Assembly (NCBI GenBank): GCA_022763215.1
Contig: JALEHC010000194.1
Coordinates: 1-35,720, forward strand
Length of the DNA: 35,720 nucleotides
Source: Saprospiraceae bacterium
Lineage (GTDB): Bacteria; Bacteroidota; Bacteroidia; Chitinophagales; Saprospiraceae
Reading direction: 5' to 3'
In this document: positions 15,526 through 18,688 of the stretch, piece after piece
Layout: every line of letters starts with the position of its first letter
Position numbering within the stretch: the stretch's first letter is position 1
Made by a program: the position numbers and the translations under genes
The notes under the pieces: model-generated
Seen by the model: only the letters and a program-made list of their open reading frames with translations
Databases searched by the model: none
Told to the model about the DNA's origin: nothing

Positions 15526-16989
15526 TCATACAGTTACTCCTGATTCGAGTTTTTCAAGTTCTTCTAATATCCAGAACTTGTTAATAACGTTATCGGCATC
15601 GATTGTTTTTTGTTTCAAGGCTTTTATTTTTTCTCCAAATTCTTTTTCAGAGTAAGTTTGGGCCTGTGGTCTTAATAATACTAGTTTTTTGGCAAAACGA
15701 AGTAGGTTTGTATATCCTCGTTTTTGGTCTGTGGTCATTCGTTTGTTTCGCATTACATAAATCCGAAACGCTTCAATTCTGGATAAGGAAGATTCCGTAT
15801 TATTCATAGCATAGAAAGTACGCAGAATCAAGAAATTGGTGGTCAGGTTATATTTTACATCCGGGAAGTCAACATCTAGTAAGAGTTCGAGTGTTTTGTT
15901 GTATTCTTTTTGGTTGTAGTACAGGTTGGCCATATTAAACTTATAGGCATTTTCCTGTCGGTTGGGCATAAGTTTGCTGTTGTAGTTTTCGATAAAGTCT
16001 TTGGTCCAGTCAAACTTTTTGAAACTACAACCCAGGGTAGCGATATTTTTATAATCCCATTCAGAAAGCACGCCATTTTGGAAGATCAATCCCGTTTCAA
16101 GTCCAGTGTTGTATAGGTTGAATAATTCTTCCTGATAAGCACTGTCACCACTATTGATTTTGCGGATACAATAATTGTAGGCAAAACGGTATGAGTCGTG
16201 GCCTTCTTTAGTACTTAGTAAGTGGGTTTTATTATCGAGGATATATTTGAGGTCATCATAGTGTTGGTCATTTTCTTCATGAATCAGACTCATTAATATG
16301 GTGTAATAAAGTTCGATACTTGGAATTTGCCGGTATACCGACCAGTTTTTTTCGAGATATTGCAATAGCTCATCCAGAAAGTGAAAATGATAACTGGAGT
16401 TGAGCATGATCATATTGGCACGTAAGTGGCAACAATTTTCAAGCATTTCTGCGATAAAGTAATAATTGAAATTATCCATCATCTTTTGAAGTACCTCTGA
16501 ATCAGCGCGGTCTTCGTACTCGGTAATATAGTAGCCCAATATTTTGTACATCCGATAATTGGCATAGAGAAAGGAACTATCGGTGTTTGAGTTTTTTTTG
16601 AGTTGCTTTTGAAGTTGTTTACTGCGGTTTTTCAAAAAATCTGCCTGATTATTTTTGGTAGCTGCTTCGAGCAGAAAAAGTTGCTCTTCATATTCTTGCT
16701 CTTCCAGGCACTGAATGGCTGTAAATTTATTGTAGAGTTTTTTGAGGTAGGACATCAAGTTGTGAATCTGCTGTTCATCAAACTTGTCTTTGGGAAACAA
16801 TTTTTTGAAGACCGCTTCTTTTTCAAGCTTTTTGGTGTTCTTTTTTCCAATATTGGCCAGAATAAGCTCCAACAACTCCGTTGTTTTCTCGTGTTGATTG
16901 AAATATGGAGAGCGCACAAAAAGAAGAAATTTTTCTCTCTTTTTCTTTGATAAATCTTCAATTAAGCGGAATAATCTACTCGTTTGCAT
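15526..16989 (-). CDS. Uncharacterised alpha-helical (TPR-like) protein
   Basis: This 487-residue protein has no signal peptide or membrane segment. It is very rich in Lys, Glu, Leu, Asn and Tyr and is predicted by eye to be helical throughout. Some stretches resemble degenerate helical repeats (for example NMANLYYNQKEYNKTLELLL, which is TPR-like). The N-terminus contains SKKKREKFLLFVRSPYFNQHEKT, a basic stretch followed by 'SPYFN'. I do not recognise the family. The gene uses many AT-rich codons compared with its neighbours. It is next to the two putative small RNAs, which are transcribed away from it. Confidence 0.75.
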   Translation of the reverse strand: MQTSRLFRLIEDLSKKKREKFLLFVRSPYFNQHEKTTELLELILANIGKKNTKKLEKEAVFKKLFPKDKFDEQQIHNLMSYLKKLYNKFTAIQCLEEQEYEEQLFLLEAATKNNQADFLKNRSKQLQKQLKKNSNTDSSFLYANYRMYKILGYYITEYEDRADSEVLQKMMDNFNYYFIAEMLENCCHLRANMIMLNSSYHFHFLDELLQYLEKNWSVYRQIPSIELYYTILMSLIHEENDQHYDDLKYILDNKTHLLSTKEGHDSYRFAYNYCIRKINSGDSAYQEELFNLYNTGLETGLIFQNGVLSEWDYKNIATLGCSFKKFDWTKDFIENYNSKLMPNRQENAYKFNMANLYYNQKEYNKTLELLLDVDFPDVKYNLTTNFLILRTFYAMNNTESSLSRIEAFRIYVMRNKRMTTDQKRGYTNLLRFAKKLVLLRPQAQTYSEKEFGEKIKALKQKTIDADNVINKFWILEELEKLESGVTV

Positions 16990-17133
16990 AACAAGATTAC
17001 TTGGTTTTGGATTCAGTAATTGTGAGTTGTTTTTTGAGTATTTGTTTGATTTTTAGTGCTTTGTGCTTGTTGTTGGTCGTGTATTGAGTCAGTAAGTTAG
17101 TAAAATGTACTTAGAAAGACAGTCAAATTGTGG

Positions 17134-17141
17134 CACTTTTG
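17134..17141 (+). promoter_or_regulatory. Putative promoter of small RNA unit A
   Basis: CACTTTTG is one base off the -7 consensus TAnnTTTG, and TTAG lies at the -33 position (17111-17114) with a 19-bp spacer. The element and the following bases (TTTGTAATG) are shared with the promoter of unit B at 17686-17693. Confidence 0.4.
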
Positions 17142-17147
17142 TAATGG

Positions 17148-17381
17148 ATACGCGATGAAACACTATATACTTTTTTTTAAATCGCGACTACTAACAAATC
17201 ATAATTGTACGACCATTACTAACAATTATTATCCCAACTTCAAAGAAAGATTTCAGGGGAGAAGAACTAAAATTCTTCTTTCCTGATTAAAAATCTAAGC
17301 AAAGAAAAGACGTAAGGAATTTAATTATAATCTCATGAGTGTTCGACCAGGGTGCTATTACCGATAGCACCCTTTTTTTTT
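17148..17381 (+). ncRNA. Putative small RNA, unit A of a tandem pair
   Basis: This is a non-coding unit of about 234 nt. In order it shows a 5' stem (CGCGAT 17151-17156 with 17181-17186), an AT-rich core (17193-17236) containing the repeat TACTAACAA at 17189 and 17217, a long hairpin (17248-17296), the block AAGACGTAAGGAATTT (17307-17322) and an intrinsic terminator. In the long hairpin, 13 pairs (17254-17266 with 17273-17285) are extended by six more across a bulge. The core 17193-17212 matches unit B at 17 of 20 positions and 17220-17236 at 14 of 17. No convincing open frame is present. The ends are inferred from the promoter-like element and the terminator. I do not recognise the family; 6S-Flavo RNA is one candidate to test. 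Confidence 0.6.
17350..17381 (+). terminator. Intrinsic terminator of small RNA unit A
   Basis: A perfect 9-bp GC-rich stem (17350-17358 with 17364-17372) with a 5-nt loop is followed by nine T. No protein-coding gene precedes it on the plus strand for more than 4 kb, which is strong evidence for a non-coding transcript. Confidence 0.9.
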
Positions 17382-17685
17382 GCCTCGCCTAGATGAATGA
17401 CTCCTTTTTCAATCTTTGGAATTTTCTTCAATGACTTCTCTCAGAAACGGATGTCTGCCTTTTTTGTCGTAAAAGAGGAAGAGGATGTAAGAAAAACTTC
17501 CGTTAGATGGGACTTTGTGCCTTATTTCAAAAAAAAATGTAGATAGCTAAAATACGTAAATATATTGTTTTGGTGTTTATCTTTTGGTTTAGATTGTTGG
17601 TTTTTAGCATTTTATGGAATTGTTATAGTTGTAGTTTGATCCAGTAATCTCTTTTCTTGTACTTATTTTTTTTATAATGTTAGAG

Positions 17686-17693
17686 CATATTTG
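17686..17693 (+). promoter_or_regulatory. Putative promoter of small RNA unit B
   Basis: CATATTTG is one base off TAnnTTTG and is followed by TAATG as in unit A. The -33 position is occupied by TTAT (17663-17666). The distance from the element to the conserved core is 46 nt here and 52 nt in unit A. Confidence 0.4.
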
Positions 17694-17699
17694 TAATGT

Positions 17700-17882
17700 G
17701 AAAAGGAACAAACGAGTTCCGGAATAAAAATAAGAGACAACAAATTATAATTCCACGAATAACAATCATAATCTCATAAAATTAAGACTTAGGAATTTCA
17801 ATGGAAATTCCGTTTTTGGTATGTAGATAGCCTCTCAAAGCTCTTTTGTGAACCGACTAGTTAAGCTAGTCGGTTTTTTTTT
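17700..17882 (+). ncRNA. Putative small RNA, unit B of a tandem pair
   Basis: This is a non-coding unit of about 183 nt. It shows a 5' hairpin (GGAAC 17705-17709 with GTTCC 17716-17720), then a core at 17739-17776 homologous to unit A. Next comes AAGACTTAGGAATTT (17784-17798), overlapping a perfect 8-bp hairpin (GGAATTTC with GAAATTCC, tetraloop AATG), and a strong terminator. The long hairpin of unit A is missing: only 7 nt separate blocks that are 70 nt apart in A. The 5' hairpins occupy the same place but differ in sequence, the pattern expected when structure is conserved. The function is unknown. Confidence 0.6.
17851..17882 (+). terminator. Intrinsic terminator of small RNA unit B
   Basis: A 10-bp stem (17851-17860 with 17866-17875) with a 5-nt loop runs into nine T (17874-17882). 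It stands 128 bp upstream of rpe, whose own -7 element lies between them. Confidence 0.9.
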
Positions 17883-18010: not shown

Positions 18011-18688
18011 ATGAGTCAGCATTTGGTTGCACCCTCTCTTTTGGCTGCCGATTTTACTAATCTTCCCGCAGAACTTGCCATGTTTAACGAAAGTGAAGCT
18101 GATATGCTTCATCTAGATGTTATGGACGGTCGTTTTGTTCCTAATATCACCTTCGGAATGCTCATGATTGATGCTATGCGGAAAATGACTGAAAAACCGC
18201 TGGATGTCCATCTGATGATTGAAGAACCGGAGCGCTATGTGGAGGATTTCCGTAAGGCTGGTGCTGATATCATTTCATTTCATTATGAAGCTACACAGCA
18301 TGTGCATCGGGTTGCCCAACAAGTGCGCGCTTCAGGGGCCAAAGCTGGGGTAGCAATAAACCCGCATACACCGGTGAGTTTGTTGTCAGACGTTTTGGAA
18401 GAAATTGACCTGGTACTTATCATGTCGGTTAATCCAGGCTTCGGTGGACAAAAGTTTATTTACCGAACCATAAATAAGGTTGAACAGCTAAAAAACGAAA
18501 TCACTGCCCGCAACTTACAGGTACAAATAGAAATTGATGGTGGAGTCGGATTGCAAAATGCAGAGGCTTTGTTGCGTGCCGGAGCCGATATTTTGGTGGC
18601 CGGAAGTAGTGTTTTTAAATCACCAGATCCAAAAGATAGCATCAAACGATTAAAAGCGATAGAAAGTGATCGCAAATTTTATATTTAA
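18011..18688 (+). CDS. rpe: Ribulose-phosphate 3-epimerase
   Basis: This cytoplasmic TIM-barrel enzyme interconverts D-ribulose 5-phosphate and D-xylulose 5-phosphate in the pentose phosphate pathway. Family motifs are present: VAPSLLAADF at the N-terminus, HLDVMDGRFVPNITFG (metal-binding His and catalytic Asp), DVHLMIEEPERY, LIMSVNPGFGGQKF and IEIDGGV, the last holding the second catalytic Asp. The length of 225 residues is normal. It is a single gene with its own -7 element. A small hairpin (18786-18802) follows before the receptor gene. Confidence 0.97.
   Translation: MSQHLVAPSLLAADFTNLPAELAMFNESEADMLHLDVMDGRFVPNITFGMLMIDAMRKMTEKPLDVHLMIEEPERYVEDFRKAGADIISFHYEATQHVHRVAQQVRASGAKAGVAINPHTPVSLLSDVLEEIDLVLIMSVNPGFGGQKFIYRTINKVEQLKNEITARNLQVQIEIDGGVGLQNAEALLRAGADILVAGSSVFKSPDPKDSIKRLKAIESDRKFYI

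Follow-up and report, generated by a model that had tools for sequence, protein, structure and literature searches.

Two candidate antisense small RNAs upstream of rpe in a Saprospiraceae bacterium and their putative partners at the 3′ ends of type IX secretion cargo genes

GadY of Escherichia coli is encoded opposite gadX and pairs with the gadX 3′UTR. The two RNA units that we describe here, A and B of a Saprospiraceae bacterium, resemble it in their predicted pairing with an mRNA 3′UTR, but they are encoded elsewhere and match several 3′ ends. Compared by description, A and B are also like the FopS/GibS sRNAs of Bacteroides thetaiotaomicron: these are paralogous, multicopy, trans-acting Bacteroidota sRNAs with their own promoters, linked to surface-protein genes, in hosts without Hfq (PMC11697453). 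FopS pairs near the start codons of susC-like mRNAs through one seed (PMC11697453), whereas A and B have several sites matching 3′-end elements next to terminators and B, in addition, has a long constant 3′ module. SroC and other sponge RNAs have sites that pair with another regulatory RNA, as A and B may, and share with them links to 3′UTRs. SroC, however, arises by release from an mRNA and works together with Hfq (PMC9438474, PMC7821165), whereas A and B are independent genes that bear arrays of several sites; the Hfq (PF17209) that an Hfq-dependent sRNA would need was found in none of the 14 genomes examined, where positive controls were detected.

The control of genes by sRNAs is poorly known in Bacteroidota outside Bacteroides, and our literature search found nothing on regulatory RNAs in Saprospirales, nor on sRNAs together with the type IX secretion system (T9SS). 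Here both partners of a putative RNA-RNA interaction are proposed from sequence alone, with covariation between clades, and a constant-scaffold sRNA family is tied to the 3′ ends of T9SS cargo genes. The genera concerned include some with cultured members (Neolewinella, Lewinella, Phaeodactylibacter and Flavilitoribacter), and it becomes testable whether terminator-adjoining elements act through sRNAs in Bacteroidota.

Anatomy and spread of the two units

The window, by which we mean the whole stretch of 35,720 nucleotides that was analysed, contains a gap of about 1 kb between a gene for a 487-aa protein (15526-16989, minus strand), divergent from unit A, and rpe (18011-18688, plus strand; Pfam PF00834, E 3e-82). 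No plus-strand ORF of at least 80 aa lies in this gap, in keeping with a preliminary description that saw no coding frame there; re-reading of the sequence also bore out its two units, each with a promoter, a terminator with nine T and a shared core, identical at 17/20 positions (17193-17212 against 17739-17758) and 14/17 (17220-17236 against 17760-17776). Both promoters are of the Bacteroidota type TGTAC-N27-TTTGTA, and all features of both units lie on the plus strand. In unit A the promoter (TGTAC box to TTTGTA, 17106-17143; a motif common to the B family) precedes an sRNA of approximate extent 17146-17384, as judged from the promoter-to-terminator span and predicted folds. This sRNA contains the extra hairpin of about 50 nt that had been described (17248-17297, a predicted fold) and ends in a GC-rich terminator (17350-17381; sequence and predicted fold). 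In unit B the promoter (17658-17695) is followed by an sRNA of approximate extent 17698-17882 with a predicted 5′ hairpin, GGAAC/GTTCC (17705-17720), a second hairpin (17792-17811), a near-invariant 26-nt block, GGTATGTAGATAGCCTCTCAAAGCTC (17818-17843), and a GC-rich terminator (17853-17882).

Within the window alone the likeness of the two cores is modest, since 17/20 was also reached by one of 30 shuffles of unit B; it is the comparative evidence that makes the observation solid. Among 61 genomes searched, homologues of unit B were found in nine further genomes of its family at E values of 1e-8 or lower (6e-63 for the best), many of these genomes having more than one copy, and a homologue of unit A in the sister species (E 5e-45). 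An exact scan of a species-genome collection with GTATGTAGATAGCCTCTCAAAGCTC returned 84 stretches, for which the named records were Saprospirales or bins labelled only Bacteroidota, Bacteroidia, Chitinophagales or bacterium. In all we collected 89 distinct copies of the B family, from Saprospirales and unclassified Bacteroidota bins, with rpe at most 400 nt downstream in 29 of them. Up to five copies of the block occur in one genome, and the block is present in only 24 of 120 genomes of the family.

The build of these RNAs is a variable 5′ part joined to a constant 3′ module of hairpin, 26-nt block and terminator. Invariance of the block in the alignment of B copies is partly built in by the choice of query; when one mismatch was permitted, 39 of 41 matches to its 20-nt core were nevertheless exact, so that the block is truly near-invariant. 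The promoter motif TGTAC-N22-36-TTTG[TA]A precedes 72 of 80 B copies and none of 80 reversed controls. In 47 copies both the hairpin ahead of the block and the stem of the terminator show covariation, which the preliminary description had proposed to look for in relatives: 83 cells have both sides changed, against 26 +/- 7 in shuffled alignments and 4-20 when the stems are slid out of register. The window matched no Rfam family at gathering or permissive thresholds. Taken together, the promoter, the covarying stems, the copies in related genomes and the lack of an Rfam match make B a real, structured and undescribed sRNA family, which agrees with the earlier view of these units as sRNAs of unknown family. 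We considered coding by B and rejected it; some copies do have an open frame across the block, but it shifts with the length of the T-run. The 3′ module of B is presumably a protein platform, with the invariant block as the presumed binding site.

Unit A is without this 3′ module. The shared core that led the units to be called paralogous stands, while their origin by tandem duplication, with conservation driven by structure, is doubtful. A better explanation of the core is that A and B each contain antisense copies of one target motif, and their likeness may thus come from shared targets.

R elements next to terminators and their match to A and B

Short matches to the core in other genomes systematically adjoin terminators of the opposite strand. 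The core shared by A and B is the reverse complement of an element, which we call R, that sits immediately upstream of intrinsic terminators and reads, in the orientation of the terminator, TTC[AG]TG[AG][AG]ATTAT[AG]ATT, with a variable terminator after it. Counts of the 13-mer ATAATCYCATGAA in 21 genomes are 3-13 per genome, and those of its reversed control 0-1. Naive matches are inflated by the palindromic ATTATAAT; the central octamer of the core is its own reverse complement.

R1 lies in the 3′UTR of a T9SS cargo gene for a protein of ~1000 aa (DUF7619 and Por_Secre_tail), and R2 in that of a cargo gene for a protein of ~835 aa (Big_9 and Por_Secre_tail). R3 is found downstream of MauG-type di-haem peroxidase genes, and R4 comprises stand-alone or tandem elements, some behind sRNA-like promoters. 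R1, single-copy in most genomes, is nearly unchanged in 17 genomes, although its host proteins share only about 34-39% identity. R1 and R2 are kept at orthologous positions across deep divergence, and R stays fixed while terminator stems vary; the R2 element is not kept in the R2 orthologues of Neolewinella. As a partner, R2 comes from the sister species alone; the window's own assembly is 89% complete. We recognised no separate promoter for R1.

Tandem arrays of R with units of ~99-138 nt are present at L125 (1500-1720; G016:C103), L257 and L334, in genomes where no B block was found. At L253, L247, L259, L262 and L263 the stop codon of the R1 gene overlaps a copy of the antisense motif, TAATCATAATCCCA; in several genomes of the window's clade a cis helix between this copy and R1 is predicted, enclosing a strong GC-rich hairpin. 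Such a helix is missing in most Neolewinella genomes. Elsewhere (L092 ~760-890, G000:C438; L321 near 1668; L333 near 1677, minus orientation) two opposite-strand R elements flank a further sRNA-like unit, which has antisense-type sites and a terminator of its own, so that the two classes appear to be nested within a single locus.

Sites in A and B each match different R variants. Duplex energy alone was too weak a measure for such AU-rich sites (for window B with its own R1, z was -2.7 against shuffles, and 121 of 3000 genomic windows had an energy as good); a complementarity score and a comparison between clades took its place. With that score as the chosen statistic, the sites beat almost all genomic windows against R elements. 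In unit A, site 1 (17186-17205) is complementary to R1 of the same genome, with two of 2000 genomic windows scoring equally; site 2 (17206-17236) to R3, including the 5′ arm of the R3 terminator, and to R4a (1/2000); and site 3 (17318-17338) to R4b of the sister species (1/2000). In unit B, none of 2000 genomic windows equalled either site 1 (17740-17761), complementary to the sister species' R2 and to R3 in its own genome, or site 2 (17760-17788), complementary to R1 of the same genome. Predicted unpairedness is 0.49-0.71 for the sites, against RNA averages of 0.43-0.44, and the predicted pairing takes in R and for several pairs also extends over the 5′ arm of the terminator.

In 77 B RNAs, AATYYCA sites number 106, against 2 for the reversed motif; 27 of these RNAs, including both other copies in the window's genome, have no such site. 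B-type RNAs at L063 (1-235), L077, L070 and L078 keep promoter, hairpin, invariant block and terminator, with a 5′ part that is without the AATYYCA site.

The two units have several features expected of a trans-acting sRNA, namely a promoter and terminator of their own, no coding frame, and a conserved complementarity to RNAs from other loci. Trans-acting pairing by the unpaired core, one of two functions first suggested for these units, is supported at the level of sequence, with R1-R4 as candidate partners. As to sponges, several anti-R sites are present in B-type RNAs, and the partner R1 is seen as a 3′UTR element.

Covariation and co-occurrence of the sRNAs with R1

Orthologues of R1 were located in eight Neolewinella/Lewinella-type genomes via the orthologous T9SS gene, whose protein there has 33-36% identity. 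Their 3′UTRs keep TTAGGTCGTCTT, a T-run and TCATGAGATTATGATT, and end in GTTTGTGCC, against TGTTATTAGC in the window's clade. In Neolewinella the flank of R1 differs, being UUUGUGCC, and its match, GGCACAA, is present in the sRNAs of that group. Their B RNAs are arrays, with up to eight sites in 461 nt, built of GGCACAAGCGAATTRTAATCTCA-like sites and GACGACC pieces that are the complement of R1 of their own genomes. An 18-mer search for targets of these repeats matched only the sRNAs themselves.

The Neolewinella sRNAs have a mean predicted duplex energy of -41.2 kcal/mol with their own R1, against -29.6 with R1 of the window's clade, and in single genomes z reaches as low as -10 against shuffles. 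In contrast, sRNAs of the window's clade have no preference for their own R1 (-33.4 against -34.1), which may stem from a distribution of their sites over R1-R4. In one genome (G019), CTCACGC in the sRNA matches GCGTGAG of the same genome. The sRNA and R1 sides covary between clades, which suggests selection on the pairing.

The two partners also occur together. Among 120 genomes of the family, mostly drafts or MAGs as throughout our comparisons (which cover unit A less than unit B), R1 was found in 23 and the B block in 24; of the 25 sampled genomes having either, 22 have the two together. Fisher's p is 1e-20, a value that ignores phylogeny in a pattern that is clade-structured. As to the exceptions, one genome (G009) has a diverged R1, TTTTCATGAGATTACAATTG, in the orthologous 3′UTR; the assembly of another (G142) is 86% complete; and the third (G080) had no match to the R1 gene at the threshold used. 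A further genome (G017) lacks a B block and keeps an R1-like remnant.

Possible modes of action

Our best reading is that A and B are multi-site antisense or sponge sRNAs that would pair with 3′ ends without Hfq; that they are trans-acting antisense sRNAs with R elements at 3′ ends as their partners we hold to be probable. This suggests a network of RNA-to-RNA control, as yet undescribed, within one branch of the Bacteroidota. We infer that both units are transcribed, that they pair with R in the cell, and that they titrate or destabilise R RNAs. Each RNA, made from its own promoter to its own terminator, would expose several AU-rich, largely unpaired sites of 20-30 nt, with different sites tuned to different R variants. 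The partners would be the R elements just before the terminators of two T9SS-exported surface-protein mRNAs, of the transcript downstream of the MauG-type peroxidase genes, and of stand-alone R RNAs. Since the sites reach the 5′ arm of the terminator, pairing over R and this arm could open the 3′ end or mark it for duplex cleavage; alternatively, A and B could titrate R1, or other RNAs, if these are released from 3′ ends.

Direct action, in which pairing at the 3′UTR alters the stability or termination of T9SS cargo and peroxidase transcripts, is a serious candidate to which we give somewhat less than an even chance. The singly matched sites of the window favour such direct 3′UTR control, each being matched to a different R variant and some extending to the terminator arm. 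The cargo mRNA's own antisense copy at its stop codon also argues for it, since that copy would pair in cis with R1 and the sRNA could compete with this internal helix. Against it, most Neolewinella genomes have no such helix, and up to eight sites for one R1 exceed what direct action needs.

Such multi-site arrays favour titration. It may be that the direction of control is the reverse, with R RNAs (3′UTR-derived or stand-alone) regulating other mRNAs through the conserved seed UUCAUGRGAUUAURAUU and with A and B as pure sponges; this we regard as possible but rather doubtful. A fixed, mostly single-copy R1, almost unchanged across genera, facing repeated and drifting sites in the sRNAs is what would be expected of a sponge, and both 3′UTR-derived sRNAs and sponges are established kinds of RNA (PMC9438474, PMC7821165). 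However, we found no other mRNA targets of R and no separate R1 promoter. The complement of R1 does read like a start region (...ATG AAA AAA AAG ACG ACC), but genes with that start region, searched for with the 13-mer, occur at chance level only; the idea of start-codon targeting was therefore dropped, and no pairing of the FopS/GibS type near a start codon was found. The fullest form of sponging, of which we are equally tentative, would be an Hfq-free, Saprospirales-wide network in which the near-unchanging element in the 3′UTR of the T9SS mRNA is a 3′-derived regulatory RNA, titrated by co-evolving multi-site sponges with a constant 3′ scaffold and an exchangeable 5′ antisense array. If this were true, evolution could re-aim the sponges by exchange of the site array.

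The core might instead be a repeated site for an RNA-binding protein, being AU-rich, repeated and unpaired, with a complementarity to R that would be incidental and helped by the palindromic ATTATAAT, its central octamer being self-complementary. We think this unlikely, as flanks beyond the palindrome also match (CACGAATA, GGCACAA and TACGACC) and change with R between clades. It is more improbable still that R elements are terminator-linked repeats spread by duplication, from which A and B picked up functionless antisense pieces by rearrangement: there are many copies per genome, some in the tandem arrays noted above, but R1 and R2 hold orthologous positions over deep divergence, terminator stems vary beside a fixed R, and the sites lie behind conserved promoters and covary with R. 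A 6S-like regulation of RNA polymerase, the other function first suggested, is scarcely credible, for it has in its favour only a size in the range of 6S RNA (6S-Flavo, RF01685) and the finding of no other 6S match in five genomes (from a whole-genome 6S-Flavo search that had no working positive control), whereas A and B match no Rfam 6S in the window, are predicted to form several short hairpins and not a long rod with a central bubble, and are multicopy and patchily distributed.

The 487-aa protein encoded beside unit A belongs to a family of proteins of ~480 aa that have no Pfam domain and are 28-29% identical (E 1e-59 and 6e-80), with members at L247 (3987-5423), L250 (3740-5161) and L081. 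Genes of this family lie divergently upstream of unit A and also, in the sister species, of both the R1- and the R2-bearing T9SS genes.
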